Of a stretch of 64,000 bases of DNA, positions 3,233-53,921 are shown piece after piece. The stretch covers positions 2,055,746 to 2,119,745 of the forward strand of contig NZ_ARVW01000001.1 in the NCBI RefSeq assembly GCF_000384315.1. Reading direction: 5' to 3'. Under the pieces are notes generated by a model, which saw nothing but the letters and a program-made list of their open reading frames with translations, did not search any database and was not told where the DNA came from. The position numbers and the translations under genes were made by a program. How positions within the stretch are numbered: position 1 is the stretch's first letter; each line of letters opens with the position of its first letter. Source of the stretch: Amycolatopsis nigrescens CSC17Ta-90. GTDB taxonomy: Bacteria > Actinomycetota > Actinomycetes > Mycobacteriales > Pseudonocardiaceae.

Positions 3233-3820
3233 GTGGACTTCGCGAAAATCTTGCGGCGACGCCGCATGGTACGCAGCTACCGGCCGGACCCGGTCACCTC
3301 TGAGCAACTGGAAAGGATCGTCGGCGCGGTCCGGCACGCACCCAGCGCCGGATTTTGCCAGGCGCACCGGTTGTTCGTAGTGACAAAGAAGGAAACCCGA
3401 CGGGCGATCGCCAAGCTTTCAAACGAGGAAAAATACTTCGTCAAACCCTGGCTCTCGAATGCGGCTGCGCATATAGTCATAGGTTTTCGCGAAGGCGATT
3501 ATCACGATCGCTACCAAAAGCCCGACAAGCTGCAAGAGGACGGCACCGAGATCCCATGGCCGGTGCCGTTCTGGTATGTCGACGCCGGCGGCCTTGCCAT
3601 GCTGATCCAGCTGGCCGCGATCAACGAAGGACTGGGAGCGGCCTTCGTCGGACCGACGGACTGGGGACCGTACCGCGAGTTGCTGGAGATCCCGGACGAC
3701 GTCACGACGATCGGTATCGTCCTGATCGGCCATGCCGACCCCGACGAGCCAAAGCACATGAACACGGACACCCTCAAACAGCAGCGCAGGCCGACCGAAG
3801 ACCTCGTTCGCTGGGACTAG
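3233..3820 (+). CDS. Nitroreductase family FMN oxidoreductase
   Basis: 195 residues from GTG 3233, chosen because AGGAGT sits 6 nt upstream. It has the nitroreductase layout: RRRRMVRSYRPDPV (FMN phosphate-binding Arg cluster) at the N terminus, RHAPSAGFCQAHRLFVV, and a C-terminal EGLGAAFVGP segment before the final IPDDVTTIGIVLIGHAD strand. Expected reaction: NAD(P)H-dependent reduction of nitro compounds, quinones or flavins. Its stop codon overlaps that of the convergent SagB-type gene by 4 nt, and both belong to the nitroreductase superfamily, so a functional link is possible but unproven. A stretch of about 100 nt of lower GC separates it from the sigma factor gene and probably holds its promoter. 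Confidence 0.9.
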   Translation: MDFAKILRRRRMVRSYRPDPVTSEQLERIVGAVRHAPSAGFCQAHRLFVVTKKETRRAIAKLSNEEKYFVKPWLSNAAAHIVIGFREGDYHDRYQKPDKLQEDGTEIPWPVPFWYVDAGGLAMLIQLAAINEGLGAAFVGPTDWGPYRELLEIPDDVTTIGIVLIGHADPDEPKHMNTDTLKQQRRPTEDLVRWD

Positions 3821-4905
3821 GACCTGTCCGTCGGCGGGCCCACCGCCGAGATGCCGAGCACGATCTCGTCGGCGGGGTCGCACTGGATCAGGTCTTCGAG
3901 GCACTCGTCGCGTAACGCCGCGGTGTAGGTGATGTGCAGCCCCAGCGCGGCGGCGGCCAGATAGACCGTCTGGCTCAGGTGGCCGAGGTCCATCATCATG
4001 ATGCGATAGGTGCGGCTGATCGGGTACTTCCACTGACAACGGTCGATCACGCTGGTGTAGATCAGGAGCGCGGCGGCTCCGGCGACCCAGTCCTGGTCGC
4101 CTGCCGCCGCGACGATCTCGGCATCCGAAATGGCGCCGGTACCGAGCCGTTCCAGCGCGTGGCCACCGCCGTCGTAGTGGTAGAGCGAAGGTTCGAGTCC
4201 CTCGACGTTCCGGGCATAAACGTAGATTTCGGTGGGGTGCCGTGCTCCGCCCGACGGGCTGGTCTTGAACACGTTCCCGTTTTCGGCCATCGCCGGCCGG
4301 TCGGGCAGTTCCGTCGGCCGCCCGGCGATGTCCAGCAACGCGCCCAGCGCCGACAGCTCGAGCGGAGAGTCGCCGAATTCCCGGTTGCTGCGGCGCTGGT
4401 ACAGCACGTCTGCGAAATCGTGGAGTTCCCAGCGCGCCGCGGCTCTGAAGGGCAGCGAAATGCGAGGAACGTCCGGGTATGGCTTGAAAGGTGGAGGCGG
4501 CGGCTCCTCGAGGAGCTTCTCCCGCACCTGAGCGCGCGACTCGTCCACGGTGACGAACGGCGTGGACCGGTGGGAACGGGTCGCGAAATGAAACGCCCGG
4601 GTGGACGGACCCCAGGCCGACCATGACCGCAGCACTCGCTGCTCGGCGCGGTGGCGCGGGGAGTCCTCCTCGATCAGGATTTCGCGGCCGAGCATCTGCT
4701 CGGTGAAGGTCCGCAAGCGGGCACGGGCAGCGGGGTCGGGATCCAGCTCCTCGATCGAGGACACCTCTCGCCACGAGACGAACCAGCGAAGAACGCGTTC
4801 GGTGCCATCGGTCAGCGCGAGCTGCCGATGCCCGAGATAGTCGTCCCAGACCAGCCTGCCGTCGTCCCAGAACATGCTCCCGCACGCCGAGACCCGTACT
4901 CGCAT
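3817..4905 (-). CDS. SagB-type (ThcOx) dehydrogenase, FMN-dependent RiPP oxidase family
   Basis: 362 residues. An N-terminal region of about 150 residues is followed by the nitroreductase-fold SagB domain with all hallmark motifs: RRSNREF at 171-177, SPSGGARHP at 216-224, and KYPISRTYR at 293-301 followed by GHLSQ at 308-312, which hold FMN and the Lys-Tyr pair used in azoline oxidation by McbC/BcerB-type enzymes. GGAGGAAGG precedes ATG 4905. Known relatives oxidise thiazoline or oxazoline rings in peptide natural products after a YcaO cyclodehydratase; no YcaO gene is in the window. The 32-residue peptide gene starts 146 nt upstream on the same strand and is the natural substrate candidate. 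The true reaction here is open: dehydrogenation of a different bond is possible. Confidence 0.9.
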   Translation of the reverse strand: MRVRVSACGSMFWDDGRLVWDDYLGHRQLALTDGTERVLRWFVSWREVSSIEELDPDPAARARLRTFTEQMLGREILIEEDSPRHRAEQRVLRSWSAWGPSTRAFHFATRSHRSTPFVTVDESRAQVREKLLEEPPPPPFKPYPDVPRISLPFRAAARWELHDFADVLYQRRSNREFGDSPLELSALGALLDIAGRPTELPDRPAMAENGNVFKTSPSGGARHPTEIYVYARNVEGLEPSLYHYDGGGHALERLGTGAISDAEIVAAAGDQDWVAGAAALLIYTSVIDRCQWKYPISRTYRIMMMDLGHLSQTVYLAAAALGLHITYTAALRDECLEDLIQCDPADEIVLGISAVGPPTDRS

Positions 4906-4952
4906 GCCGCCTTCCTCCGAACTCCGGGGCAGCAGCCTCGGAGCCTCACTGA

Positions 4953-5051
4953 CTACCCTGAGACGTGCGGGATCCAGATGATGATGTCGTCATACTCGCC
5001 CTGGTAGGCCTCGAATGCTTGGACCTCCGTGGCCTTGGCTTCCTGCTCCAC
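4953..5051 (-). CDS. Candidate RiPP precursor peptide, 32 residues
   Basis: A GTG start at 5051 follows AAGGAGG by 9 nt, one of the best ribosome binding sites in the window, and the frame stops at TAG 4953-4955, 47 nt before the SagB-type gene. The N-terminal half is acidic, alanine- and glutamine-rich and helical in character (MEQEAKATEVQAFEAYQ), like a leader. The C-terminal half is GEYDDIIIWIPHVSG: an isoleucine run, one Trp, one Pro, one His, one Ser and no Cys or Thr. The gene lies between the SARP regulator and the dehydrogenase, all on one strand. The coding call rests on ribosome binding site, position and composition. Lack of Cys/Thr argues against ordinary thiazole chemistry. Confidence 0.6.
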   Translation of the reverse strand: MEQEAKATEVQAFEAYQGEYDDIIIWIPHVSG

Positions 5052-5080
5052 TTCGCGCGCACCTCCTTCCCATTAGCGAC

Positions 5081-5090
5081 GAACCGGTTC
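5081..5090. promoter_or_regulatory. Short palindrome upstream of the precursor peptide
   Basis: GAACCGGTTC, a perfect 10-bp palindrome, sits 30 nt upstream of the peptide start in the 59-nt gap after the SARP gene. It may be an operator. No clear SARP direct heptamer repeats or -10/-35 pair was found here, so readthrough from the SARP gene is also possible. Confidence 0.3.
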
Positions 5091-5110
5091 TGACCTGTGT
5101 ACGGAGTGGT

Positions 5111-7996
5111 TCAGGTGATCGGATTCTGGCTGTTGCAGTCTTCGAGCTGGCGGCGTACGTCCTCAGTCTCGGGTACCCCGAGGTCGGTGTAAAGACCGAG
5201 TGCATGTTGCCAGTGGCGGCGGGCGGCCGGCAGCCGACCGAACTTGCGGTGGGCGTCGGCGATCCCGCGATGGGCACGGGCCTCCTCGTGCCGGTTGCCG
5301 ATCACCCCGCTGATGGCGAGCGCCTGCTGGTGGTGCGCGAGAGCGTCGGTGGGACTGCTGGTGGCGGTCTCGCCGAGCCCGTTGAGCACCTCGGATTCGA
5401 GGTCGCGATTGCCGGCTTCGCGAGCGAGCGCAAGCGCTTGCTCGAGGTGGGTGAGCGCCTGCTCGACCCGACCAAGGCCCCCGTTGACGAGCCCGAGGCC
5501 GTATAGGGCGTAGCCCTCGATGTGGCGATGGCCGGAGCGCTGTGCGAGGGCCAGCCCCTCCTCGAGGTAGATCAGGCCCTCGTCATAGCGCTTCGCGTGC
5601 CAGCAGACGAGGCCGAGGTTGTCCAGCGCACGGCCTTCGACGTCGCGGTCGCCGGCCTCCTTGGCCAGGGTCAGCGCCTGCTTGAGGTAGACGTGCGCCT
5701 GGTCGAGCTGCCCCATCCGCCAGTAGACGAGCCCGACGTCGCCCACCGCGCGGCGTTCCAGCACCCGGTCGCCGACCTCGCGGGTGAGCTCCAGCCCCTC
5801 TTCGAGGTGGATGAGCGCCTGGTCGTAGCGCCCCAGTCGCCAGTAGACGATGCCGAGGCCGTGCAGTGCCTTCGTTTCGAGGTCGCGGTCGCCCGTGTCG
5901 CGGGCGGTGGTGAGGGCGTGCGTGTGCAGGGTCAGCGCTTCATCGCGGTAGCCGCCGATGTCGAGATAGCGGTACAGGATGGTGGACAGGTAACCGGTGT
6001 AGGCGTGCCAGCCCCGGCTGTCGGCGTGGGCGGCCGCGGCCAGCAGATTGTGCCGTTCGGTCTCCAGCCACGACCATGCCTCGTGGGAATCGGACAGCGG
6101 CGGAGCGGGCGTGCCGGGTGCGCTGACGACGGGCCGGTGGTGTTTCTCCTTGGGGTACACGGCGTCCATCGCCGCGGACGCGACGTGCAGGTAGTGGTCG
6201 AACATCCCGGTCAGTGCCGCGCACCTGCTGTCGTCGGTTTCGGCCTCGGTGACGAGCTGCGCGGCGTAGGCACGCAGCAGGTCGTGGAACTGGTACCGGC
6301 CGGAGGTCGGCTGCCGGAGCAGGTGCACGTCCAGCAGCTCCTCGAGCAGCCGGTCTGCCTCGTCGAGCTCGATACCCGCCAGCGCGGCGGCCTGGTAGGC
6401 GTCGAAGTCGGTGCCGGGGTGCAGGCCGAGCAGCCGGAACAGGCGCTTGTGGCCCGCATCGAGGTGCTGGTAGGAGAGCGTGAACGCGGCGGCGACGCTG
6501 CGGTCGCCGGTGGCCAGCTCCCGCAGCCGCTGCTGGCCCCGCATGCGCTCGGCCACGTGCCTGATCGTCCAGGTCGGGCGGGTGCGCAGCCGGGACGCGA
6601 TGATCCGGATCGCCAGCGGGAGGTAACCGCACAGCCGCACCACCTCGTCGGCCCAGCCGCGCTCGGCCGTGACCCGCTCGTTCCCCACCGCACGGGCGAA
6701 CAACGTGACGGCTTCCTCCGGCCGGAGGACGTCGGTGGAGAAGGTGTGCGCTGCTTCGAGGTCGCTGAGCTGCTGCCGGCTGGTGATCAGCACCAGGCAC
6801 GCGGGGTTACCGGGGAGCAACGGGCGCACCTGGGCCGCGCTCGCGGCGTTGTCCAGCACCACCAGCGTCCTGCGGTTGGCCAGCTCCGCCCGCCAGAATC
6901 CGGCCCGTTCCTCCAGCCCGTCCGGAATCCGTTCACCCGGCACGCCGAGCTGGCGCAGCAAGGTGTCCAGCGCGGCGGCCGGTTCGGTTGGTTCGTGCCC
7001 GGCGGTGTGCGCGTGCAGGTCGATGAACAGCTGCGCGTCGGGGTACCGATCGGTGAGCTGATGGCCCGCGTGGATGGCCAATGTCGTCTTGCCGACCCCG
7101 GCCATGCCGTCGATGGCGTTGATCAGCACGGCCAGGTTGGCGCCCTCCACCATCGGCAGCGTGGCGATGAGCTGGTCGAGCTCGAGATCGCGCCCGGTGA
7201 AGTCGTCTATATCGCGAGGCAGGTAGTTGCAGCCGGCCGGCCGGGCGGTTTCCTGCGGGCGCTCGGCGACCTTCCCGGTGAGGACCTGCTGGTGCAGGCG
7301 TTGGAGCTCGTCCCCCGGCTCGATCCCCAGTTCGTTGACCAGCGCCCGCCGTACTGTCTGAAACGCCTGTACCGCCGCGGCCGAGCGGCCACAGCGGTAC
7401 AGGGTGAGCATGAGCTGGCCGGCCAGCCGCTCGTCCAGCGGGTGCGCCACGGCTCTCGCGGACACCTCCACCAGCAGCTTGGTGTGCAGGCCGAGGCGAA
7501 GCGCGACATCGTTGCGGTCGAGCTCGGCGGCCAGCCGTTCCTGGTCGAGCGTCTCCCGCATCGCGGCGAACCACGGGGTTTCCAGGGTGGCGAAGGCATC
7601 TCCGTGCCACAGTCCCAGCACCTGGTCGAAGACCGCCAGAGCACGAGCGTCGCCCTCGATCTTGCGGGCTTGCCCGACCAGTTCCCGGAAGCGATGCAGG
7701 TCCACCGCCGCCGGGTCGACCGCCAGCAGGTACCCGCCAGGCCGGCGGGCGATCCGGACATCGCCGACGGCCAGTATCCGGCGAAGCCGGGACAAGTAGC
7801 TGTACAGCGTCTCGCGGGGCCGATGGGGCGGGGAGCCGCCCCACACCCGGTCGACCAGCTGGTCGACCGAAACCGGCTGGTTGGCGTCGGCGAGCAAGGC
7901 CGCGAGGACATACCGTTGCCGCAGGGAGCCAACATCGATCAGCCGGCCGTCGTGGTGTACCTCAAGATCACCAAGTACCTGGAACTCCACCGTCAC
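5111..7996 (-). CDS. SARP (AfsR-like) regulator: DNA-binding/BTAD, NB-ARC, TPR
   Basis: About 961 residues. The order is: an OmpR-like winged helix (VEFQVLGDLEVHHDGRLIDV...YVLAALLADANQPVSVDQLVDRVWG), a BTAD domain, an NB-ARC ATPase with Walker A GMAGVGKTTLA and the sensor segment LVLITSRQQLSDL, then at least six tetratricopeptide repeats (RDLETKALHGLGIVYWRLGRYDQA type) to the C terminus. This matches large SARP activators of antibiotic clusters such as AfsR. GTG 7996 places the winged helix at the very N terminus as in other SARPs; TTG 8059 and ATG 8035 are in frame alternatives. The next genes downstream on the same strand are the candidate peptide and the SagB-type enzyme, so it is probably their activator. 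Confidence 0.9.
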   Translation of the reverse strand: MTVEFQVLGDLEVHHDGRLIDVGSLRQRYVLAALLADANQPVSVDQLVDRVWGGSPPHRPRETLYSYLSRLRRILAVGDVRIARRPGGYLLAVDPAAVDLHRFRELVGQARKIEGDARALAVFDQVLGLWHGDAFATLETPWFAAMRETLDQERLAAELDRNDVALRLGLHTKLLVEVSARAVAHPLDERLAGQLMLTLYRCGRSAAAVQAFQTVRRALVNELGIEPGDELQRLHQQVLTGKVAERPQETARPAGCNYLPRDIDDFTGRDLELDQLIATLPMVEGANLAVLINAIDGMAGVGKTTLAIHAGHQLTDRYPDAQLFIDLHAHTAGHEPTEPAAALDTLLRQLGVPGERIPDGLEERAGFWRAELANRRTLVVLDNAASAAQVRPLLPGNPACLVLITSRQQLSDLEAAHTFSTDVLRPEEAVTLFARAVGNERVTAERGWADEVVRLCGYLPLAIRIIASRLRTRPTWTIRHVAERMRGQQRLRELATGDRSVAAAFTLSYQHLDAGHKRLFRLLGLHPGTDFDAYQAAALAGIELDEADRLLEELLDVHLLRQPTSGRYQFHDLLRAYAAQLVTEAETDDSRCAALTGMFDHYLHVASAAMDAVYPKEKHHRPVVSAPGTPAPPLSDSHEAWSWLETERHNLLAAAAHADSRGWHAYTGYLSTILYRYLDIGGYRDEALTLHTHALTTARDTGDRDLETKALHGLGIVYWRLGRYDQALIHLEEGLELTREVGDRVLERRAVGDVGLVYWRMGQLDQAHVYLKQALTLAKEAGDRDVEGRALDNLGLVCWHAKRYDEGLIYLEEGLALAQRSGHRHIEGYALYGLGLVNGGLGRVEQALTHLEQALALAREAGNRDLESEVLNGLGETATSSPTDALAHHQQALAISGVIGNRHEEARAHRGIADAHRKFGRLPAARRHWQHALGLYTDLGVPETEDVRRQLEDCNSQNPIT

Positions 7997-8147
7997 CTCG
8001 ACGCCCTGGAAGTGAGCACTCCCTCGTACTGGCATAGCAGCTACGAGAAAGTGATTCAAGGTCTATCCACAGCAAGTCTAGACAGCTTTACGACAGGAGT
8101 GGCCGTGTCCGGCTCACCAATCGCAAGGTTACGCAGAGTACCTGAGG

Positions 8148-20080: not shown

Positions 20081-21844
20081 ATGGCGGTGTGTTCGCGCAG
20101 GCTGGTCGTCGCACTCGGGGTATTCGTGATCGCGATGATCTCCAGCCAGGGCACGGCCTCGGCGCACGCGGTGCTGGTGGGCAGCACACCGGGAAGTTTC
20201 GAGGTGCTCGGTACCTCGCCGTCCGAGGTGACCTTGCGGTTCAACGAATCCGTCAGCATCGGCGTGGCCGAGATCCGCCTCATCGGCCCGGGTGGCGCCG
20301 ACGTCGCGGGCGTCTCGAAGCCGGCGCATCCACCGGACAGCCCCGAGGTCGTCGCGGCGACCCTGCCGGCCGGGCTGGCCAAGGGCACCTACACGGTGTC
20401 CTACCGGGTGGTGTCCGCCGACTCCCATCCCGTGCAGGGGGCTTTCGCGTTCAGCGTCGGCGAAGTCACCGGCGGCGTCGCGGCCGGCACGGACGCCGGT
20501 ACCGCGAGCGGAGCGGTGTCGCTGCTGTACGGCATCACCCGCTGGCTCGCGTACGCCGGACTGGCCCTGCTGATCGGATCGGCCTTCTTCGTGGCCGTGT
20601 GCTGGCCGGGCGGCGAGGCGATGGCCGGGGCGCGCCGATTGCTGTGGACCGGCTGGGGAACCCTGACCGGAGCCACCGTGGGGACGCTGCTCATCTACGG
20701 CCCGTACGCGGCCGGCGGATCGATGGGCGACCTCACGGATCCGGCGTTGCTCGGCTCGACGCTGGCCGACCGGATGGGCGTGACGCTCGCCGTCCGGCTG
20801 GTACTGCTCGGCCTGATCGCCGTGGGACTGCGATACCTGCGCCGCAGCACGCCTTTCGGGCAGTACCAGGTCCGCAACCACCGCCGCCGAGCGGTGGTGG
20901 TGCTCGCGACCGGTGCCGCGCTGGCGGTGACCTGGAGCCTGGCCAACCACAGCGCGACCGGAGCGCAGGTCGGACTGGCCATCCCCGCCGACGCGATCCA
21001 TCTGCTCGCGATGGCGGTCTGGCTCGGCGGCCTGCCCGTGCTGCTCGGCGTTCTGCTGCGCTCGGGTGACGTGGGCGGTATGCGGACCGCGATCCCCCGA
21101 TTCTCGGCCACCGCGCCGATCTGCGTCGGTGTCCTGATGGTGACGGGCACCTATCAGGCCTGGCGCGAAGTCGGCACGCCGGCGGCCTTGTTCGGCACGG
21201 CATACGGGCTCGTGCTCGCCGCGAAGGTGGGCGTGGTCGTCGTGCTGGTGGGGCTGGGCGGGCTGGCCCGCAACTGGGTGCGCCGGCACTACGCCTTCGA
21301 GGTCGTCACGGTCTCCGACAAGCGGCGGGCGCGCAGAGGGCCGGCGGAACGTGAGGTCGGCCGCTTCCGCCGGATGATCTCGGTGGAGGTCACCGTCGCC
21401 AGCGTGCTGCTCGGGTTGACCGCGTCGCTGGTGAGTGCCGAGCCCGCCGCGGCCGAGCTGACCAGGATCCGCGCGCTGGAGTCGATCCCGGAGCGTACCG
21501 GGCCGGTGAACGTGGTGCTGCCGTTCGACGCCGGGGGCGGCGAGCAGGGGGCCGGCAAGCTGGCGGCGTTGGTCATGCCCGGTGCGGTCGGCCGGAACGA
21601 GGTGCACCTCGCGGTGCTCGACGTGCACGGGAAACCCAAGCAGGTACCCGAGTTGCGCGCGGAGCTGAGGTTGCCGGCCAGGTCCATCGGGCCGCTGCCC
21701 GTCGAGATGCGGCTGATCAGCGGTGATCACGCGATCGCGCAGAACGCGCCCATCACGATGCCGGGGCAGTGGGAGCTCGCCGTCACCGTGCGCACGTCCG
21801 AAGTCGACCAGGCCGTGGTGCGGATTCCAGTCGGCGTGCGCTGA
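20081..21844 (+). CDS. Copper resistance/uptake fusion protein CopC-CopD (copper ligands intact)
   Basis: 587 residues. After a signal peptide the mature protein would begin at His29 (TASA-HAVLVGSTPG), and SADSHPVQG gives Asp114 and His116: together the Cu(II) site of CopC. CopC spans about 29-125. A CopD membrane domain with about eight helices follows (about 145-460), with histidines in WSLANHSATG and AIHLLAMA. The C terminus (about 480-587) is an extracytoplasmic beta domain seen in actinobacterial YcnJ/CopCD proteins. Expected role: binding extracellular Cu(II) and moving it through the membrane. It opens the copper region. A second CopCD (26871-28532) keeps the fold but not these ligands. 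Confidence 0.9.
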   Translation: MAVCSRRLVVALGVFVIAMISSQGTASAHAVLVGSTPGSFEVLGTSPSEVTLRFNESVSIGVAEIRLIGPGGADVAGVSKPAHPPDSPEVVAATLPAGLAKGTYTVSYRVVSADSHPVQGAFAFSVGEVTGGVAAGTDAGTASGAVSLLYGITRWLAYAGLALLIGSAFFVAVCWPGGEAMAGARRLLWTGWGTLTGATVGTLLIYGPYAAGGSMGDLTDPALLGSTLADRMGVTLAVRLVLLGLIAVGLRYLRRSTPFGQYQVRNHRRRAVVVLATGAALAVTWSLANHSATGAQVGLAIPADAIHLLAMAVWLGGLPVLLGVLLRSGDVGGMRTAIPRFSATAPICVGVLMVTGTYQAWREVGTPAALFGTAYGLVLAAKVGVVVVLVGLGGLARNWVRRHYAFEVVTVSDKRRARRGPAEREVGRFRRMISVEVTVASVLLGLTASLVSAEPAAAELTRIRALESIPERTGPVNVVLPFDAGGGEQGAGKLAALVMPGAVGRNEVHLAVLDVHGKPKQVPELRAELRLPARSIGPLPVEMRLISGDHAIAQNAPITMPGQWELAVTVRTSEVDQAVVRIPVGVR

Positions 21845-21865
21845 TTCTCGAAACGGGGAGAACAG

Positions 21866-22561
21866 ATGAACAGGGACATCCGCGACGGCGACGCGCGCAG
21901 CCTGCCGGCGGACGCGCTGGAGCGGCTGCGTCGCCAGGTCGTCGCCGCGGTCGAGTCCGGCTTTCCGCACGAGCAGGCCGCGCGCGTCTTCGGCGTTTCG
22001 CGGAAGACCGTGGGCACCTGGGTCCGCACCTACCAGGCCGGCGGCGAACAGGCGCTCCAGCCGAGACGCCGAGGGCGCCGCGCCGGTGATCGGCTGGCGC
22101 TTTCCGCGGCACAGCAGGCGTGGGTGGTCAAGACCGTCGCGAGCGGACCGCCGGACGACCTTGGCCTGCCGTGTCTGTTGTGGACGCGGCGGGCGGTCGC
22201 CGAGCTGATCCGCGGGAAGTTCTCGATCGCGCTCAGCACGGCGACGATCGACCAGTACCTGTCGCGATGGGATCTGATCACCGAATCCCGCCCGCCGGCA
22301 GCGGAACCGGACGCTGCCTTGTGGGTGGCGTGGACCTGCCCGCGCCCGGTCACCAGCCCCGCCCGGTTGAACGCGCTGGTGGCCCGCACCAATCGTGGGG
22401 TGCTGCTGTTCCTAGTGAGCGAACGACCCTTCGACCGCGAACGACTGACCGATTTCCGGAAAAGGCTGCGGGTGCAGCTCGCGCGGGACGTGCGCGTGGT
22501 CGTCCGCGGCTGGCCCGGCGCACAGGCCGAACTGCTCGACTGCTGGCAGCACGATGACTGA
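21866..22561 (+). CDS. Domesticated IS630-type transposase derivative, HTH protein (copy 1)
   Basis: 231 residues. The N terminus is a homeodomain-like helix-turn-helix (EQAARVFGVSRKTVGTWVRTYQAGGEQAL) followed by the winged helix of IS630 transposases (LWTRRAVAELIRGKFSIALSTATIDQYLSRW). The C-terminal ~85 residues look like a shrunken DDE domain, but the expected catalytic residues are gone: ALWVAWT stands where IS630 has an Asp-Glu pair, and VVVRGWP where it has an Asp. GGGGAGAA precedes ATG 21866. No inverted repeats flank it. A paralogue at 29943-30788 has lost the same residues in the same way, so a retained DNA-binding role is more likely than decay. It is coupled to the CopCD gene (21 nt gap) and overlaps nothing downstream. 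Confidence 0.75.
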   Translation: MNRDIRDGDARSLPADALERLRRQVVAAVESGFPHEQAARVFGVSRKTVGTWVRTYQAGGEQALQPRRRGRRAGDRLALSAAQQAWVVKTVASGPPDDLGLPCLLWTRRAVAELIRGKFSIALSTATIDQYLSRWDLITESRPPAAEPDAALWVAWTCPRPVTSPARLNALVARTNRGVLLFLVSERPFDRERLTDFRKRLRVQLARDVRVVVRGWPGAQAELLDCWQHDD

Positions 22562-22577
22562 AACCAGGAGGCCAAGC

Positions 22578-23435
22578 ATGCGAATTCGCCGCTGCTTCTC
22601 GTTCGGCGTGCTGATGCTCGTCTGCTTCACGGGCACGGCGGTGGGGGCCGTGCCCGCGGACCCGGTACTAGCCTCGAGCTGCGCGACCGTGATGGAGGGG
22701 GTGGCCGGTCAGGCGGTCGTGCTGGACCCGCGGGCGGTGGGCGAGCCGATCACGGAAGTCCTCAAAGGACTGGACCCGCTCGGCATCCTGGTGGCACCGT
22801 TCCGGCAGGTGTGGAACGGCTTGCCGCCGGTCCCCCTCGGTACCGTCCCGGTCGGTGAGCTGATGATCGACGGGACACACGTCGCCGAGGCCGTGGTCCA
22901 GCGGCTGCGGGAGATTCCTTTGCTGGCGCCGGTTCTTGAGCTGCTGGTGCCACCGGTGCGCTCGGTGCTCGGCGCGGCCTGCGGCATTCTGGCCCGCGCC
23001 GCCGACCAGCCCGATGTCCCCGACCCGGAAGCTCCGGCACCCCCGCTCGGGCCGAGTGCCCCTGGCGACTCCCCGGGACTGTCGGACCGTCCAGGTCGTC
23101 CACGGTGGAACTGGGATACGACGGGAGCTTCGTACGACCCGATCGCGGGCGGCAAGGGCGGCGGCACCCGGTTCGGTACCCGCCTCGGGCAGCCATTTCC
23201 GGCCGGGGCAGCGATCGGTTTCCGTGCCCCCGGTGCCGCCCCGGGACAGGGTGTTCCTGGCCCGGACGCGCCGAGCCCGTTGGTGGCGAACGCTCGGCGG
23301 CCCGCCGGCACGGCGGTGGCGCTGCCGGCCGAGCGGAAGCAGCTTTCCCAGCCGGTGGCGCTGCTCGCCGTGCTGCTGCTCACCGTGGTCAGCGCGCAAC
23401 TGGTCCGCACCTGGGTGCTCCGCGCCCAGCACTGA
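22578..23435 (+). CDS. Secreted, C-terminally membrane-anchored protein of unknown function (copy 1)
   Basis: 285 residues from ATG 22578 (CCAGGAGGCC upstream). A signal peptide is followed by a conserved domain of about 110 residues with two Cys (SSCATVMEG and GAACGIL) and the motif LDPLGILVAPFRQVWNGLPPVP. A Pro/Gly-rich linker leads to one C-terminal membrane helix and a short basic tail (LVRTWVLRAQH), so the domain faces outward. I do not recognise a named family. A clear paralogue is at 32576-33388, with the same Cys, motif and tail, preceded by an MmpS-like gene. Because both copies are in the copper region and the two Cys are conserved, a metal- or redox-related surface role is a guess. 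Confidence 0.75.
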   Translation: MRIRRCFSFGVLMLVCFTGTAVGAVPADPVLASSCATVMEGVAGQAVVLDPRAVGEPITEVLKGLDPLGILVAPFRQVWNGLPPVPLGTVPVGELMIDGTHVAEAVVQRLREIPLLAPVLELLVPPVRSVLGAACGILARAADQPDVPDPEAPAPPLGPSAPGDSPGLSDRPGRPRWNWDTTGASYDPIAGGKGGGTRFGTRLGQPFPAGAAIGFRAPGAAPGQGVPGPDAPSPLVANARRPAGTAVALPAERKQLSQPVALLAVLLLTVVSAQLVRTWVLRAQH

Positions 23436-23612
23436 AACATTTTCCGAGCACCTTCCACTATTCGCATATCCACCTCGGGAAGTATTCAGATTCGCCGACC
23501 GGCAATCAATTACTTACACATTTCTTCACCAGGCGCCCAGAATTGCGAGCACGTTCCTTTACATTCAATTAACCCGCACGCATCCGTCGTCGAACACTCA
23601 GCGTGCTGTAAT

Positions 23613-23638
23613 TTTTTCGTCCGAATTCGGACGAAAAA
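23613..23638. promoter_or_regulatory. Perfect 26-bp palindrome before the cupredoxin gene
   Basis: A 13+13 inverted repeat, TTTTTCGTCCGAA and its complement, with no loop, ending 13 nt before ATG 23652. It lies beside the ribosome binding site GAAAGGA. Either an operator or a hairpin that masks the ribosome binding site. As a terminator it would be unusual because it has no loop and sits in the leader. Confidence 0.6.
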
Positions 23639-23651
23639 GAAAGGAATGCCC

Positions 23652-25994
23652 ATGTCCTTAAAAGCTCCTCCGGGAGCCCGAAGTAAGCGATACCGCTTCA
23701 AGGGGGCGGTCTTGCTGGCTATCGGAGCGGTCGGGGCTTCGGCGGTGGCCGCGGTGCCCGCCACCGCGTTGCCGGTCGGAGTCGGTCCGGTGCCGATCAC
23801 CTTCAACCTGAACGACAGCAACGGAAACTGGTTCGACTCCGGGCTCGAGCTGTTCGGCGGCAAGTCGCTCGCGGTGGCGGAACTGCCGCGGCTCGGCACC
23901 ACCGCACTGGACGGCGGGATCATCCCCAAGCTGCCCGACCTCGGCCTCGGCCTCGGCGGCTTGGCACCGCAGGAGTCCGGTGGCCTGATGAACCTGAACC
24001 TGGTCGACTCGCTCACCGGCCTGGTGAAGGACGCGACCAAGTCGGCTCCGTTGCTCGGCGAGACCGGGGTGAACCTCGGTGAAATGCTCAACCTGGACAG
24101 CACCCTGTCCGCCGTCAAGTCGATCGCCGGGGCCAAGCCGGAGGCGGCAGCGGCCGCCGGCAAGGCCGAAGGGCTGCTCGGTCAGTTCTCCTCGGTGATG
24201 GCCGGACTGCCGGCCGACGCGCCGATCAGCCTGAACAGCCTTCCGGTCGGTCTCGACCTCCAGAAGGCGCTGGACGACCTCGCCACGTTCGCCGTGAAGG
24301 GCCCCGCGGTCACGGCGAACTTCAAGATCGAGGATCCGGCCAGCGAGTCGCTGCACGACATCACCTCGCTGATCTGGCCGGAGAACGCGCCCTATTTCGA
24401 GCAGATGGGTGCTTTCGCCGGCGAGGACTCCACGCAGCTCACCGAGCCGGGTCTGTACGCCTGGACGTGCACCATCCATCCGTACATGCTCGGCGCGACC
24501 GTCGTCGACGATCCGCTCACCATCGGGCTCGACTTCGGCAAGAGCCTCAAGGTCAACTCGCGGAACATGACCGTTCCGTCGAGCGCGGACGTCATCCAGC
24601 AGCTGGTGCGGTCGTTCTTCACGATCACCGTGCCGGACAACTGGCAGAAGTACAGCGCGACCGAGTCGTCCAGCTGGAACCCCCTGTTCCCGCCGGCGCC
24701 GATCCTGCAGTACGACGAAAACGGCAACCCGCTGCTGATTCCCATCCTGGACGCCTACTACGACAAGAAGTTCAACTATCCCAAGACGCTGGACGCGCTG
24801 ACCCCACCGAAGACACCAGGGGTGGGTGAAGTCTGGATCGACACCCAGATGGAGGAATACGCCGGTAAGGACTACGTGGGTGCGGCCACGAAGGTCAACG
24901 TGGAGAACTGGAAGGTCGATCGGAAGATCTCCGGTTCGAGCATCAATCTGAACAATCCGCACAACATGTGGACGGACAAGGACTACAAGTACCTGTACCA
25001 GACGCAATGGTTCGACGACGAGCTGTCGGTGTTCGACCGAGATACCGGCGCGCACGTCCGAACTGTCGAAGTCGGGCCGGATCCATCACACGTGATGACC
25101 CGGACCGATACCGACCAGGTGCAGGTGGCGATCAACGGTGGTACGGATGTCGTGGAGCTCTCACCGGGTGCCACGAAGATCGACCGGCGCATTCCGGTCG
25201 GGCCGATGGGAGCGAACATGGCCCCGCAGCATCCGCACGCGTTCTGGCTCAGCGGTGACGGCAAGACCACCATCACGCCGAACGTCAACCCGTACGACGC
25301 CAGTGTGGTCGACAACGAAACAGGTACCTGGAAGAAGGAACCGACCGGCGAATTGCCGATCGCTTCCGGAATGATGTCGGACCAGTCGAAGTTCTACATG
25401 GCAGACTTCCTCGGGGCGAGCATTTCGTGTGTCTCGCTCGCGGAGGACGCCTGCATGCAGGACGGCAAGGCGGTGCACAACTCCAGCATCAACCTGTGGG
25501 AGAACTACGACCCGGTCGCCGGGCGGGACGGCACCAAGCCGTGGGGTGGCCTCACCATCCAGCTCCCGGTCAGCCCCGACGACAAGGCGCTGCTGGCCGC
25601 GAACACCTTCAGCGGCACGGTTTCGGTCATCGACCCGAAGACCGACAAGGTGCTCAAGGAGCTGCCTTGCAACGCCGGCTGTCACGGCATCAACTTCGGT
25701 GCCAAGAAGGGCGGCGGCTACTACGGCTACGTGTCCAACAAGTTCTCCAACGCCGCGCAGGTCATCGACATCGACCCGAACGGTGACGGCAACATCTCGG
25801 ACGCCGCCATCGCCGGCCAGCTGGTGCTCAACCAGACGGCCGACACGAAAATGGAGGACACCCTCACCGGGCAATCCGGCATGGGTGGACAGGGCGTGCT
25901 GCCGATTCCGCTGGTCTACAACGGATGGTCGCAGCAGGTCCCGGCCGGATGGCGGGAGAAGCTGACGCCCGAGCAGCTCAACCCGATCGGCTGA
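23652..25994 (+). CDS. Secreted cupredoxin-beta-propeller protein
   Basis: 780 residues. ATG 23652 is preferred over 23646 because GAAAGGA needs the spacing. A signal peptide ends near VPATALPVG. Residues about 215-290 hold a type-1 copper site: His235 (LHDITS), then Cys273, His276 and Met279 in WTCTIHPYMLG, as in plastocyanin-like domains. From about 400 on there are YVTN-like beta-propeller blades (FDRDTGAHVRTVEVGPDPSHV; NTFSGTVSVIDPKTDKVLKEL) with a Cys pair CNAGCHG. The N-terminal 200 residues are Leu/Gly-rich and unassigned. The likely role is an extracellular electron-transfer or oxidase protein that receives copper from the surrounding CopCD/YcnI proteins. It is transcribed alone, between a palindrome and a terminator. 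Confidence 0.85.
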   Translation: MSLKAPPGARSKRYRFKGAVLLAIGAVGASAVAAVPATALPVGVGPVPITFNLNDSNGNWFDSGLELFGGKSLAVAELPRLGTTALDGGIIPKLPDLGLGLGGLAPQESGGLMNLNLVDSLTGLVKDATKSAPLLGETGVNLGEMLNLDSTLSAVKSIAGAKPEAAAAAGKAEGLLGQFSSVMAGLPADAPISLNSLPVGLDLQKALDDLATFAVKGPAVTANFKIEDPASESLHDITSLIWPENAPYFEQMGAFAGEDSTQLTEPGLYAWTCTIHPYMLGATVVDDPLTIGLDFGKSLKVNSRNMTVPSSADVIQQLVRSFFTITVPDNWQKYSATESSSWNPLFPPAPILQYDENGNPLLIPILDAYYDKKFNYPKTLDALTPPKTPGVGEVWIDTQMEEYAGKDYVGAATKVNVENWKVDRKISGSSINLNNPHNMWTDKDYKYLYQTQWFDDELSVFDRDTGAHVRTVEVGPDPSHVMTRTDTDQVQVAINGGTDVVELSPGATKIDRRIPVGPMGANMAPQHPHAFWLSGDGKTTITPNVNPYDASVVDNETGTWKKEPTGELPIASGMMSDQSKFYMADFLGASISCVSLAEDACMQDGKAVHNSSINLWENYDPVAGRDGTKPWGGLTIQLPVSPDDKALLAANTFSGTVSVIDPKTDKVLKELPCNAGCHGINFGAKKGGGYYGYVSNKFSNAAQVIDIDPNGDGNISDAAIAGQLVLNQTADTKMEDTLTGQSGMGGQGVLPIPLVYNGWSQQVPAGWREKLTPEQLNPIG

Positions 25995-26029
25995 GCCGAT
26001 TTCGTTCTGACCGTCCACTCCCGATAACT

Positions 26030-26070
26030 GCGGCCCGGAGCTGGGTACCCCTTCCCCGGCTCCGGGCCGC
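26030..26070 (+). terminator. Intrinsic-type hairpin after the cupredoxin gene
   Basis: GCGGCCCGGAGC (26030-26041) pairs perfectly with GCTCCGGGCCGC (26059-26070), a 12-bp GC-rich stem with a 17-nt loop, no U tract, 36 nt after the stop. This form is common in actinobacteria. It separates the gene from the YcnI operon. Confidence 0.75.
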
Positions 26071-26097
26071 GCCATCCCGGCTCTCCCGGAGACTCCC

Positions 26098-26874
26098 ATG
26101 GCTCATCATCCGAACATCCGCCGCTTCCTGACCGTGCTGCTCGCCTCGGTGCTCGCGACCGCGACCGGCCTGCTGGTCACGGCCGCACCCGCCGGCGCCC
26201 GAGTGTCCATTGTGCCCGGTGCCGCGAAAGGCGGCGGCACGGAGACCTTCGCCTTCCGGCTGGCCAACGAGCGGCCGGACACCTCGAGCGACCGGCTCGA
26301 ACTCGTCTTTCCCCAGGACCTGCCCATCGCCTTCGTCGAAGTGGCGCCGGCCAGGGGCTGGACCGCGACTGTCGTCCCCCGCCCGCTGGAGCCGCCGGTC
26401 CAGGTCGGCGACCAGACGGTCAGCGAGGTCGCCGGCTCCATCGTGCTGACCGGCGGACCGGTCGGGCCCGGCCAGTTCGAGCAGTTCCTGATCACCTTGG
26501 GGCCGCTCCCGGCGGACGGCAGGCTGGTGTTCGAAGCCAGCCAGGGCTTCACCAACGGCGCCGTCGAGCGGTGGGCCAACGCCGCGCCCGGCTCACCGGC
26601 GATCACCATCGGCGCCGGTGCCGGGGCCCCGGCACCGTCCGCGCGCGCGAACCAGGGCGGGTCCGCGTCCGACCCGATGGGTCAGACCGTGGTCGAGGAC
26701 ACCGGCGATGCGCCGCCGACGGTCGCCGTCCTGTGGGGCGCGCTCATCCTCGCCGCCCTCACCGTCGCCCTCGTCGGGCTCCGGGCGCACCTGCGCCGCA
26801 TCCGGCCGCGGTCACCGGAAACGGACCCGGAAATCGCTGAATCGCCGGAGTCCTCGAAGGTGGTCAGCACATGA
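26098..26874 (+). CDS. YcnI-like (DUF1775) protein with N-terminal His replaced by Arg
   Basis: 258 residues: signal peptide, a DUF1775 beta-sandwich (SIVPGAAKGGGTETFAFRLANERPD... VEVAPARGWTATVV... IVLTGGPVGPGQFEQFLI), a Pro/Ala linker, one C-terminal membrane helix (VAVLWGALILAALTVALVGL) and a charged tail. Known YcnI proteins bind Cu(II) with the His that becomes residue 1 after signal cleavage. Here the predicted cut (AGA-RVSIVP) leaves Arg35, so that ligand is absent. The paralogue at 30868-31560 keeps the His. The gene overlaps the CopCD copy 2 by 4 nt and starts an operon that also holds the PepSY protein. Confidence 0.85.
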   Translation: MAHHPNIRRFLTVLLASVLATATGLLVTAAPAGARVSIVPGAAKGGGTETFAFRLANERPDTSSDRLELVFPQDLPIAFVEVAPARGWTATVVPRPLEPPVQVGDQTVSEVAGSIVLTGGPVGPGQFEQFLITLGPLPADGRLVFEASQGFTNGAVERWANAAPGSPAITIGAGAGAPAPSARANQGGSASDPMGQTVVEDTGDAPPTVAVLWGALILAALTVALVGLRAHLRRIRPRSPETDPEIAESPESSKVVST

Positions 26875-28532
26875 CGTTGGTCAAGGATCGCCCGCGCGGT
26901 ACGAAGACCAGCACCGGCACGTCGGCCGCCGGACTCGCTTTCGCACTGCTGGTGGCGGCCTGCTGGGCGACGCTGCTCGCGGTGGCGTCGCCGGTGTCCA
27001 CCGAGGTCCCGGTGCTGAGGTCGACCTCGCCGGGGGCCGGGGTGACCGCGCGACCGGACGAGCTGGTGCTGACCTTCGACCGGCCGGTGCCCGCGGGACT
27101 GGCCACGGTGCGCCTGACCGACCCGTACCACCGGGAGATCGACCCCGGCGTGCCCACCCACCCGGACGGCCGCGCGGACACGATCTCGGTGCCGATCCCG
27201 AAGCAGAAGTACGCCGGCACCTACAGCGTGGCGTGGAGCGTGCCGACCGAACGGCTCGAGTCCGTCAGCGGGACCTTCACCTTCGACCTCGCGTCCCGCA
27301 GCTCGGTGCAGGACGCGCCGCAGCTCGCCACCAAGCCCGGCACGGTGGTGACGGTGTTGTACGCGGTGGCCCAGTTCGGCGCGCTCGCCGCGTTGGCACT
27401 ACTGGTCGGCGCGGTGTTCTTCGTCGCGGTGAGCTGGCCGGCCGGTGCCTCGTCCAAGGTCGCGCGCCGGGTGGTCAAGTACGCGTGGGCGGCACTGGCC
27501 GGGTGCACGCTCGGGGCACTGGTGCTGTTCGGGCCGTATGCGGCCAAGCTACCGCTGACCGACGTCTTCAAGGGCGGGCTGCTTTCCGGCACGTTCGAGT
27601 CCGGCGTTGGCGCCACCTTCCGCGCGCGGCTGCTCCTGCTCGTGCTGACCGGGATCAGCACGGTGCAGTTCATCGCCAGTGCGCCCGCGAAGACGACAGG
27701 CGAACGTTGGCTGCGCGGTGGCGCGGTGCTGGGCTGCGCGGCAGCGCTGGTGGCGACCTGGAGTTTTTCCGGGCACAGCGCGCCGGTGCCGCTTTCGCTG
27801 GCCGTCGACATCGTCCACCTCACCACGATGGCGGTGCTGGCCGGTGGCCTGGCGATGCTGTGCGTGATCCCGCGCCGCAAACGCGAGCTTGCCGAGGTAC
27901 CTCGGTTTTCGCGGCTCGCACTGGTATCCGCGGGGCTGCTCGTGGTCACTGGTGCCTACGAGTTCTGGCGGCAGGTCGGTGGTTTCGCCGCGGTGACCAC
28001 CTTTCCGGGCTGGCTGTGGGCCGCGAAGGTCGGGCTCGTCGTGGTGCTGGCCGTAACCGTCCTGGCCGTGCGCTGGTGGAGGTCCAGGAGGGGTCCGGCC
28101 GTGGCCGGGGTCGTCGCGGCCGGGCTGCTGCTGGCCGTCACCACGGTGCTGGCGATCAGCCGGCCCGCACGCGTCGCGGATGCCGCGGCCCGGCACCAGG
28201 CGCCGCCCGCGCGGCTGGAGTTCGACACCGGTGGCCAGGACGGCAGGGGCTGGCTGGATCTGGCCGTGGTACCGGCCAAGGTCGGCGAGAACGAAGTGCA
28301 CCTCTCGGTTCTCGACCGAAGGCTCGCCACGGCCACGGACCAGTTCGCGGTCACCGCCGTGCTGAGCACAGCGGACCAGTCCGGGAAACCGATACCGCTC
28401 ACCCGGGTCGGCAAGGGCTATTCGACCGGCTCGGTGCACCTCCCGGGTCCCGGTCAATGGGAACTCGCACTCACCTTCCAGTCCGCGGACGGCAAGCAGC
28501 AGACCAGCTACGGCGTCGTCGACGTCACCTGA
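26871..28532 (+). CDS. CopC-CopD fusion paralogue lacking the CopC copper ligands
   Basis: 553 residues with the same design as the 20081-21844 protein: an N-terminal membrane/signal segment, a CopC-like domain, about eight CopD helices (from about 150 to 430) and a C-terminal extracytoplasmic domain (LDLAVVPAKVGENEVHLSVLDR, close to the equivalent stretch of copy 1). The CopC ligands are gone: STEVPVLRSTSP replaces the N-terminal His motif and PTERLESVSG replaces SADSHPVQG. CopD-type histidines remain (FSGHSAP, DIVHLTTMA). It overlaps the Arg-type YcnI gene, so both copper-ligand-free proteins are made together. They may bind a different metal or serve as partners of the intact copies. Confidence 0.85.
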   Translation: MTLVKDRPRGTKTSTGTSAAGLAFALLVAACWATLLAVASPVSTEVPVLRSTSPGAGVTARPDELVLTFDRPVPAGLATVRLTDPYHREIDPGVPTHPDGRADTISVPIPKQKYAGTYSVAWSVPTERLESVSGTFTFDLASRSSVQDAPQLATKPGTVVTVLYAVAQFGALAALALLVGAVFFVAVSWPAGASSKVARRVVKYAWAALAGCTLGALVLFGPYAAKLPLTDVFKGGLLSGTFESGVGATFRARLLLLVLTGISTVQFIASAPAKTTGERWLRGGAVLGCAAALVATWSFSGHSAPVPLSLAVDIVHLTTMAVLAGGLAMLCVIPRRKRELAEVPRFSRLALVSAGLLVVTGAYEFWRQVGGFAAVTTFPGWLWAAKVGLVVVLAVTVLAVRWWRSRRGPAVAGVVAAGLLLAVTTVLAISRPARVADAAARHQAPPARLEFDTGGQDGRGWLDLAVVPAKVGENEVHLSVLDRRLATATDQFAVTAVLSTADQSGKPIPLTRVGKGYSTGSVHLPGPGQWELALTFQSADGKQQTSYGVVDVT

Positions 28533-43157: not shown

Positions 43158-43847
43158 GTGAACGCGACCTTCTCCACCCTGGAGGGCTTCTACCTTCCGC
43201 GCAGTAGCGGCGAGTCGAGCCTGTTCCAGATCTGGGAACGAGGTGAAGCGCGTGGGGACTCCGTCACACCGTCCACCTACTCGGCCGCCTACCGGGACTG
43301 GATGCACGAAAAACTGGTGGCCGCGATCAAGGACAACGAGACCGACCGGCTGCTCAGCCTTGGCAGCGGCAACGCGACGCTGGAGCGCTGCATCGTGCAG
43401 GACGGCTACCGGGTGCTCGCGGTCGACGCGATCCAGGAAGCGGTCGACCTGGCCAGGTCCAAGGACGTGGACGCGGTGTGCGCGGACGTGATGGCGTGGA
43501 CTCCCGACGGCACCTGGCCCGTGATCTACGCCGATGGCCTGCTCGGTCACCTCTACGATGCCGACCGCGGTCTGGCGCCGGTGTTCCGGCGAATCCGCTC
43601 CTGGCTGGCCGATGGGCCCGGCGGCGGCACCTTCATCGCCTCCAACGACAGCCCCGCGGGCACGCATCCGGCACAGGCCGCGCCCGGAGTCCCCGGATTC
43701 CACTGGCTGTCCCCCGGCTACTTGCGGGACGAGGCCCTCGCGGGGGGCTTCACCGAAATCAGCACCGACCTGTTCCACTACGACCGCCCCCTGTCGGGAA
43801 GGCGGACCCGCGCGGTGATCACCGCGAACCTCGAACCCACTTCTTGA
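43158..43847 (+). CDS. Class I SAM-dependent methyltransferase (TblA-like position)
   Basis: 229 residues from GTG 43158 (AAGGGA upstream). The SAM motif I is LLSLGSGNATLE with VLAVDAIQEAVDLARSK after the second strand and VIYADGLLGHLY as the substrate strand; GSGNATLE shows the usual G-x-G-x-G is altered to GSGNAT. The N terminus (STLEGFYLPRSSGESSLFQIWERGEARGDSVTPSTYS) is specific and unassigned. It sits between the preQ0 genes and the decarboxylase. In the tabtoxin pathway a one-carbon unit from methionine is used and a protein of this type is encoded, which is why I note the parallel; the substrate is unproven. Confidence 0.8.
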   Translation: MNATFSTLEGFYLPRSSGESSLFQIWERGEARGDSVTPSTYSAAYRDWMHEKLVAAIKDNETDRLLSLGSGNATLERCIVQDGYRVLAVDAIQEAVDLARSKDVDAVCADVMAWTPDGTWPVIYADGLLGHLYDADRGLAPVFRRIRSWLADGPGGGTFIASNDSPAGTHPAQAAPGVPGFHWLSPGYLRDEALAGGFTEISTDLFHYDRPLSGRRTRAVITANLEPTS

Positions 43848-43864
43848 GTGCAGGGAAACACATC

Positions 43865-45157
43865 ATGCCGATGAGCGAAGACTTCGCGCTGCGCCTGGAT
43901 GCGGTGCTGCAACCGGCCGTCGAGCGTTTCGGGACGCCTTTCCACATCTACGACGAGCAAGGTATCGGCGAAACCTGCGCGGCGTTCGATACGGCCTTCG
44001 AAGGAACCCCGTACCGGGAGCACTTCGCGGTCAAAGCACTGCCCAATCCGATCCCGCTGCGATTGCTCGCCGAACGCGGGCTGGGCTTCGACTGCAGTTC
44101 GCTGCCGGAACTGGCACTGGCCGCCAAGGCGGGGGCCGTTGGCCACGACATCTGCTTCACTTCGAACAACACCAGCAGCGCCGAACTCGCGGCCGCACTG
44201 GCACTCGGGGCGTTGATCAACGTGGACGACGTGACGGTGTTCGACAAGCTGGTGGCGATCGGCGACGTGCCCGACACCCTGTGCTTCCGGGTGCACCCCG
44301 GGATAGCGGGTTCCCTTGTCGGCGAGTCCTACCTCGGCAACCCCGATTCGGCCAAGTTCGGTGTCCCGGCCGACCAGCTGATCGGGGTGTGCGCCCGCGC
44401 ACGGCGACACGGTGTGCGGCACTTCGGCCTGCACATGATGCTCGGTTCGGGATTCCTGTCCGGACAACCCTTCCTGCGCAGCCTCGACCTTCTGCTGGAG
44501 CAGGCGGCTCGGCTGCACGAGTCGTCGGGCATCACCGTCGAGTTCGTGAATCTCGGCGGCGGAATCGGCATCCCCTACCGGCCGGACGAGCCGGTCTTCG
44601 ACCTGGCCGGGCTGGGCATGGCCATCGGGGACAAGTTGTCGTCGTGGGCCCGGCGCCACGGCCTGCCGCGCCCCACGGTGCTGTTCGAAAGCGGCCGCTA
44701 CGTCACCGGGCCGCACGGCGTGCTGGTCACCCGCGTGCTGAACAGGATGAGCAAAGGGCGGGAGTACGTCGGCGTCGACGCCGGCATGAGCGCGCTGATG
44801 CGGCCAGGGATGTACGCCGCCTATCACCACGTCACCGTTCCCGGCGGTGCGGGACGGCCGCACGAGATCGTGGACGTGGTCGGCTCGCTGTGCGAGAACA
44901 ACGACAAGTTCGCCCAGCAGCGGGAGATTCCCGCGACGGCGGAGGGCGACCTGGTGCTCATCCACGACACCGGGGCACATGCCCTGTCCATGGGGTTCAA
45001 CTACAACGGACGGCTGCGCCCGCAGGAACTGCTGCTCCGTGCGGACGGCAGCGTGGAGCGGATTCGCCGGGCGGAAGCCGAGAGCGACTACTTCGCCACC
45101 CTGGACTTCCCGCCGCTGCGCCTGTCCCCGAGTGAGCTGTCGGTGGGCGCGGCGTGA
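43865..45157 (+). CDS. PLP-dependent decarboxylase, LysA/DAP decarboxylase-like
   Basis: 430 residues from ATG 43865. Fold-type III PLP enzyme: Lys57 in FAVKALPNP binds the cofactor, GFDCSSLPELALA, SGFLSGQPF, FVNLGGGIGIPY and LFESGRYVTGPHG phosphate loops. SLCENNDKFAQQREIP corresponds to the C-x-x-x-D active-site segment contributed by the second subunit. This matches diaminopimelate decarboxylase-like enzymes and TabA of the tabtoxin cluster; LysA of lysine synthesis would normally sit near thrA/argS. It probably acts on a substituted diaminopimelate-like acid, or may have lost decarboxylation. The next gene overlaps by 4 nt. Confidence 0.88.
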   Translation: MPMSEDFALRLDAVLQPAVERFGTPFHIYDEQGIGETCAAFDTAFEGTPYREHFAVKALPNPIPLRLLAERGLGFDCSSLPELALAAKAGAVGHDICFTSNNTSSAELAAALALGALINVDDVTVFDKLVAIGDVPDTLCFRVHPGIAGSLVGESYLGNPDSAKFGVPADQLIGVCARARRHGVRHFGLHMMLGSGFLSGQPFLRSLDLLLEQAARLHESSGITVEFVNLGGGIGIPYRPDEPVFDLAGLGMAIGDKLSSWARRHGLPRPTVLFESGRYVTGPHGVLVTRVLNRMSKGREYVGVDAGMSALMRPGMYAAYHHVTVPGGAGRPHEIVDVVGSLCENNDKFAQQREIPATAEGDLVLIHDTGAHALSMGFNYNGRLRPQELLLRADGSVERIRRAEAESDYFATLDFPPLRLSPSELSVGAA

Positions 45158-46293: not shown

Positions 46294-46304
46294 AGGGAAA
46301 ACAT

Positions 46305-48145: not shown

Positions 48146-48190
48146 CGCGTTGACACGGAATTGTTTCCAGACCGAGAAAGAACGCGTGAT

Positions 48191-53909: not shown

Positions 53910-53921
53910 AAAGGAATCTTC

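Follow-up and report, generated by a model that had tools for sequence, protein, structure and literature searches.

A SARP-peptide-SagB cassette in Amycolatopsis points to a little-explored ribosomal natural product family without the usual ring-forming partner enzyme

Introduction

In pathways to linear azol(in)e peptides, SagB/McbC dehydrogenases act together with a YcaO cyclodehydratase on Cys, Ser and Thr residues. RiPP recognition elements (RREs) fused to dehydrogenases have been noted in cyanobactin, LAP and thiopeptide clusters, where they may be vestigial according to the RRE-Finder authors (accessible passages of PMC7470986). Nitroreductases of RiPP clusters that lack YcaO are described as rare and functionally uncharacterised in the available text of PMC12636437, which reports PflD, a YcaO-free MNIO-nitroreductase fusion that converts Phe to Z-dehydro-Phe with a loss of 2 Da, and whose authors consider that related enzymes could form other dehydroamino acids. 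Furthermore, SagB-like nitroreductases stand with predicted precursors, those of precursor clusters 367 and 1115, in ATP-grasp branch 6 loci (excerpted text of PMC8939145).

Here, we analyse a cassette of a SARP regulator, a 32-residue peptide and a SagB-type dehydrogenase in a stretch of 64,000 nucleotides of Amycolatopsis nigrescens, called the window throughout. With a probability of roughly 0.78, we read it as a minimal RiPP cassette in which a lone SagB docks the leader and oxidises the core directly. Its enzyme shares the domain family (TIGR03605) and an aligned Lys-Tyr pair with those SagB/McbC dehydrogenases, whereas no YcaO was found nearby and the core holds one Ser; the locus therefore shows neither the YcaO nor the Cys/Ser/Thr-rich core of the linear azol(in)e peptide/TOMM class. 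The likeness to PflD, drawn by description, is that of a nitroreductase-type enzyme on a RiPP without YcaO; PflD differs in its fusion to an MNIO and in a cluster with an HEXXH enzyme, a GNAT and transporters (PMC12636437, in the parts accessible). As regards graspetides, no ATP-grasp ligase adjoins the window precursor and none was matched by tblastn in the first 14 kb, the amino-acid-ligase-type gene 43 kb away belonging to another gene run. In the open-access literature searched, no description of a SARP-peptide-SagB cassette was found. Our data support the interpretation given in the initial annotation, although the new chemistry that it suggested has some precedent; since an ATP-grasp-SagB pairing (PMC8939145) and a YcaO-free nitroreductase (PMC12636437) are already in print, as far as the accessible text of both goes, the cassette is not categorically new among RiPPs. 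With a single enzyme, a single substrate of 32 residues and a docking block that can be mapped, it comes close to the minimum for such a system, and it raises the question of what a SagB does when azoline is absent.

Results and Discussion

Organization of the cassette

The three genes follow one another on the minus strand, with gaps of 59 nt between SARP and peptide and 47 nt between peptide and SagB. The features are as follows:

5111..8059, minus strand: SARP/AfsR-like regulator, 982 aa (Pfam BTAD, NB-ARC and TPR_12)
5061..5068, minus strand: Shine-Dalgarno sequence AAGGAGGT, 9 nt upstream of the GTG start
4953..5051, minus strand: precursor peptide gene, 32 residues, GTG start, TAG stop, with comparable peptides in related loci
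4992..5018, minus strand: leader block AFEAYQGEY, residues 12-20, proposed docking sequence (matrix from other loci)
4956..4991, minus strand: variable core DDIIIWIPHVSG, residues 21-32, after the common block
3817..4905, minus strand: SagB-type dehydrogenase, 362 aa (PF00881, 66 bits; TIGR03605)
4642..4905, minus strand: RRE-like (PqqD-like) region of SagB, residues 1-88 (hhalign)
3838..4401, minus strand: nitroreductase-fold (SagB) domain, residues 169-356 (Pfam PF00881)
4024..4029, minus strand: Lys293-Tyr294 of SagB, aligned with McbC Lys201-Tyr202 (phmmer alignment to 6gos chain C)
3233-3820, plus strand: free-standing nitroreductase, 195 aa, facing SagB and overlapping its end by 4 nt

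The regulator is a SARP by its BTAD domain (113 bits against a Pfam cut-off of 22.1), one of 37 BTAD matches in this 9.1-Mb genome, and its score of 634 against the AfsR equivalog cut-off of 1430 (NCBIfam) indicates that it is not AfsR itself. It also stays under the cut-off of the model for HaaT, the TPR protein of the HaaA cyclophane system (481 against 1125 bits).

The enzyme exceeds the TIGR03605 cut-off (109 against 78.4 bits). Its best-scoring NCBIfam model is TIGR04511 (SagB_rel_DH_2, putative peptide maturation dehydrogenase), with 156 bits over residues 67-357; this is below the cut-off of 240, so it is not a member of that family. The frame is intact and keeps all 18 columns that are invariant in an alignment of 43 SagB sequences, the window sequence included. 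The Lys293-Tyr294 pair, numbered by hand from the printed phmmer alignment, corresponds to a pair of McbC that we take to be catalytic; Lys293 is replaced by Arg in some relatives. As is usual in the family, the enzyme presumably depends on FMN. An AlphaFold2 model built from 12 sequences reached a pLDDT of 40, too low for use.

The peptide reads VEQEAKATEVQAFEAYQGEYDDIIIWIPHVSG. Between the preceding stop and the GTG, its frame contains no other ATG, GTG or TTG, and GC contents of 0.66/0.31/0.84 over the three codon positions are coding-like for GC-rich DNA. The word AAGGAGGT occurs once in the 64 kb, both strands counted; as 54 of 100 shuffles hold it at least once, the word in itself is not improbable, and what counts is its position 9 nt from the GTG. 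Thus, the large SARP, the short peptide with an outstanding ribosome binding site and the adjacent SagB-type enzyme that the initial annotation had described are all borne out, as is a C-terminal half lacking Cys and Thr, in which one Ser is present.

Around the cassette, Pfam recognises a nitroreductase, a sigma factor and an ABC substrate-binding protein, and no exporter was seen adjoining it. The free-standing nitroreductase was rejected as a cluster member because no homologue was called in 16 related 20-kb loci.

Relatives within Amycolatopsis

At E 1e-30, 24 of 80 genomes of the genus match the SagB (own genome included). A full-length SagB, 54-57% identical, was found in 19 other genomes, and each of these type A loci carries an acidic peptide of 39-40 residues that ends 52-59 nt upstream of SagB, together with a SARP upstream of the peptide in the same direction (19/19, tblastn). 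Across the 19 sequences pS is 0.25 and pN is 0.06, giving a pN/pS of 0.23, and the type A peptide is under purifying selection. Because all 19 relatives keep the arrangement and their peptide is under such selection, the cassette is more than a chance assembly. Nine type A loci, compared over 20 kb, share neighbours among themselves, and beyond SARP and SagB none of these neighbours has a counterpart among the genes of the window's first 20 kb; the three genes thus stay together in two different surroundings. A single-sequence scan of the genome contigs gave no match, and the alignment-based scan recovered 11 named Amycolatopsis loci with relatives of the window SagB.

Relatives in other genera

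In the family, 83 of 390 genomes (own genus included) match the SagB at E 1e-40. From the matches in other genera at E <= 6.7e-83 we read 33 of 47 loci, the 14 omitted all belonging to one genus (g8); eight more loci that were read came from a class-wide draw of 394 genomes, nine of which, counting the window's own, gave a match at E 1e-60. Two further arrangements emerged.

All 13 type B loci have a short peptide gene directly before SagB, and in 10 an MFS gene follows SagB. By tblastn a SARP adjoins in 11 of them, on the downstream side in convergent orientation in six and on the upstream side in divergent orientation in five; two of the type B SARPs were also scanned with Pfam. We estimate the chance of SARP adjacency at about 6% per independent placement, from the 37 BTAD matches in 9.1 Mb. 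Peptides are retained in all loci read that keep the SARP-SagB pair (19/19 in the genus and 11/11 SARP-bearing loci in other genera), the outcome on which the initial annotation had staked its claim.

In type C (21 loci, tblastn), the order is invariably precursor, ATP-grasp ligase, SagB, and no SARP was matched in any of the stretches of 11-13 kb. The peptides were selected by the leader-block pattern described below, six of them having already been called, free of the pattern, as a conserved small frame. Three ligases that were scanned resemble TIGR04187 and MvdC/MvdD below the cut-offs, and one scanned ligase matches solved ATP-grasp peptide ligases. These loci are probably the SagB-bearing part of ATP-grasp branch 6, which, in the portions of PMC8939145 at hand, likewise places a SagB-like enzyme beside short predicted precursors; their SagBs fall just outside the clade of the window enzyme, and they have a ligase and no SARP, whereas the window cassette is without a ligase.

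Close SagB relatives are therefore accompanied by a comparable short gene in all 19 loci of type A, all 13 of type B and all 21 of type C. A short ribosomal precursor and a modifying enzyme are conserved together, as is generally required of a RiPP gene cluster, and the peptide is very probably the dedicated substrate of the adjoining SagB.

Two loci whose peptides were picked by block score, L149 and L151, stand outside the three types. No intact peptide was found in two loci of the close clade with shortened SagB frames (L121 and L131), and the Shine-Dalgarno scan gave no clear candidate in L132, where SagB is also shortened, nor in L044. In L131 a short peptide remnant lies upstream, and SagB is split into two matches in both genomes concerned (G222/G223); these SagB genes are probably decaying copies. 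In a further locus (L152), assigned to no type, a SagB relative of 33% identity has a small frame, MIKIEPVEELTIIIQFSPS, upstream.

A common leader block and divergent cores

Most of the peptides share a leader block, AFEAYQGEY in the window, and diverge after it. Its clearest form is [AVT]-F-E-x-Y-x-x-[ED]-Y. Similar nine-residue blocks are represented in type B by AFESYSQDY, AFEPYSQEY, VFEELLDAY, AFEELLNSY and VVTELSEEY, in type C by AFEGYVNDY, TFEAFASAY and ALAEYAAEY, and in Amycolatopsis by FLYELEAEY. Departures include VLRPVAGCY (L102), Asn or His in the last place (L114 and L148, respectively) and a one-residue insertion (L151).

We picked the blocks visually, knowing the sequence of the window peptide. 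A matrix free of the window ranks its peptide first of 1000 open segments, with 17.8 bits against 11.0 for the next, and the score of the window block is reached by 4 of 100000 shuffles. When groups were left out one at a time, the window block being in the matrix, five of eight were clear (4 to 16 of 5000 shuffles); the three that were not are g23 (701), g1 (439) and g30b (276), so that the nearest relatives, g1, share the block weakly.

The most informative locus is L149, from another order and with a SagB 51% identical. Its 82-residue precursor (L149:4924-5172) is encoded some 1 kb upstream of SagB, from which a TPR gene separates it, and holds three repeats of the form V-F-E-[VT]-H-x-D-[DA]-Y; after each comes a short stretch that ends in NHNE. 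A single block in this precursor would be no independent test, as the locus was found by its block score (12.8 bits, window included in the matrix); an independent test is provided by block and core recurring together three times.

By direct search, no near copy of the window peptide exists among the 390 family genomes, which returned its own locus and 13 weak matches (E 0.19-0.98), mostly within long frames. The division into a leader-like and a core-like half made by the initial annotation fits a common block followed by divergent sequence, and the search for peptide homologues that it advised upheld the leader block, weakly in the nearest relatives, while the cores differ.

After the block, five of 20 cores lack Cys, Ser and Thr altogether (L102, L198 and L115 of type B; L104 and L119 of type C), and azoles cannot therefore be the common product. 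The earlier statement that azole-forming residues are missing is thus fully right for these five and nearly so for the window core, which has one Ser after the block. No residue is universal among the cores compared. An aromatic residue or His (W/F/Y/H) is present in 19 of 20, L151 having none, against 14.8 expected from an assumed background, with a P of 0.018 that holds only if the cores are independent, which related cores are not.

An RRE-like region at the N-terminus of SagB

By sequence profile, the first 88 or so residues of SagB resemble a PqqD-type recognition domain. Aligned with PqqD proteins by hhalign, they match end to end over 78 columns (score 30.9, P 2.3e-5, probability 76) in a profile made from 28 of 30 fetched loci, L176 and L184 being omitted. 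None of 200 column-shuffled controls reaches this score (best 19.1), and slices of the SagB profile without the N-terminus score at most 14.1, a slice from column 45, which overlaps it, scoring 23.8. Because the close-clade profile alone gives a probability of 28 (score 24.0) and the Pfam PqqD model (PF05402) has no match to SagB at E 1e-3, this likeness is support and not proof.

Phylogeny of SagB

A midpoint-rooted tree of 53 SagB sequences, comprising 8 of the 20 type A loci, 12 of the 13 type B loci and 12 of the 21 type C loci, groups the window SagB with SARP-type loci (support 100/98) in a set of 21 rows that includes L149 and two SARP-free type B loci, and within it joins the window to Amycolatopsis (98/94). 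The 12 rows with an ATP-grasp ligase fall into two groups beyond this set, and the position of L151 and of other long rows is unsure.

A distant and separate clade, D, collects 19 rows (100/100). Its peptides lack the block; aromatic residues or His account for 55 of the 216 residues within the final 12 positions and for 5 of 257 elsewhere, and the ends are aromatic or His-bearing in 18 of 18 peptides compared.

Proposed mechanism and alternatives

Switched on by the SARP, the peptide-sagB pair would yield a precursor whose leader block, itself observed, would dock into the RRE-like region at the SagB N-terminus; with this region inside the enzyme, neither a separate cyclodehydratase nor a recognition protein would be needed. 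The FMN domain might then remove two hydrogens from the core, perhaps giving dehydro-Trp as PflD gives dehydro-Phe, with Trp26 as the proposed target and His29 as second choice; Trp26 desaturation is proposed from the aromatic- or His-bearing cores together with the PflD precedent. Leader removal and export would fall to proteins encoded elsewhere in the strain. The pairing of peptide and SagB is well supported, and the reaction is what we infer. That it is a YcaO-independent oxidation we consider probable; that the product is specifically a dehydro-aromatic residue is a tentative assignment. Equally tentative is a new RiPP class, characterised by a SagB that does its own docking and needs no YcaO, by a leader block of FExYxxEY type and by desaturation of a core aromatic residue (Trp, Phe, Tyr, His). 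Its leader-RRE module would, in the course of evolution, have been joined to various partners (a SARP alone, a SARP with an MFS exporter, or an ATP-grasp ligase) and to cores in single or tandem copies. The system offers more than 50 natural variants, a triple-core precursor and cores without any azole-forming residue.

A different oxidation, namely a crosslink of Trp, His or Tyr or an oxidative decarboxylation at the C-terminus, is rather unlikely. Both would also be possible oxidations, Trp and His lie close together in the window core, and the aromatic-rich ends of the clade D peptides would suit such a product; against this, a two-aromatic spacing common to the 20 cores was not seen by eye, and the sole YcaO-free RiPP nitroreductase that we found in the literature makes dehydro-Phe (PMC12636437, in its available passages).

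SagB enzymes are classically azoline oxidisers, and with one YcaO in the genome and one Ser in the core, an azole pathway split over the genome may be conceived, in which the distant YcaO would cyclise Ser31 and the cassette SagB oxidise the azoline. That single YcaO match (5293791-5294780) lies 3.2 Mb away, about 1 kb from the only other SagB-like match of the genome (E 3.3e-6), and so does not clearly complete the pathway, as the initial annotation had allowed that a YcaO elsewhere might. Its remark that YcaO is missing is right locally, since tblastn with one query, the genome's own YcaO, matched nothing in the window and nothing in the 79 related stretches compared (8.5-20 kb), a search that a divergent YcaO could escape. 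Added to the five cores without Cys, Ser or Thr and to Ser/Thr columns that vary in g1, these results make a split pathway very improbable.

Little credence attaches, too, to a peptide that serves as a regulatory, uORF-like leader for sagB translation, SagB itself acting on a small molecule or a carrier-bound azoline, as has been proposed for nocobactins in Nocardia. The peptide is short and immediately upstream, and SagB-like genes occur in siderophore clusters (accessible text of PMC7413640); nevertheless, selection acts at the amino-acid level, the block recurs in precursors that precede an ATP-grasp gene and do not adjoin sagB, and neither the triple-repeat precursor nor the RRE-like region fits this explanation. 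Finally, a chance open frame in a degraded relic cassette, to which the lack of a close copy among the 390 family genomes would lend itself, is scarcely credible given the perfect Shine-Dalgarno sequence, the coding-like composition, the first rank of the block and an intact SagB with its 18 invariant residues.

Additional observations

Clade D (L038-L043, L122-L130, L133 and L153-L155) is preceded by mostly basic peptides of 20-31 residues, most with a strong Shine-Dalgarno sequence, ending either in aromatic stretches (FFWVWQHS, FVWWWSQS) or in NHPA-like tails (LLSNHPA), and is possibly another YcaO-free SagB RiPP family. A Peripla_BP_2 gene lies near the NHPA locus L040, with homologues in L041 and L044, and in L043 (10384-13026, plus strand) JmjC/cupin-type and MFS genes follow the clade D SagB, the peptide there ending in QLLHHPTT.

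In the window strain, the region C1:5291508-5296261 holds the single YcaO detected in the genome together with the second SagB-like match and a BTAD match; it is a separate region, probably of azole type. Within the window, copper genes of the CopC/CopD type occupy 20081-28532 (plus strand). A gene run at 43478-55395 (plus strand) encodes a PLP decarboxylase, an aminotransferase, a 2OG-Fe(II) oxygenase, an ATP-grasp amino-acid ligase, a fusion protein of 1284 aa with acyl-CoA dehydrogenase, AMP-binding and carrier parts, and an MFS protein, and looks like a cluster for a small amino-acid or dipeptide natural product.
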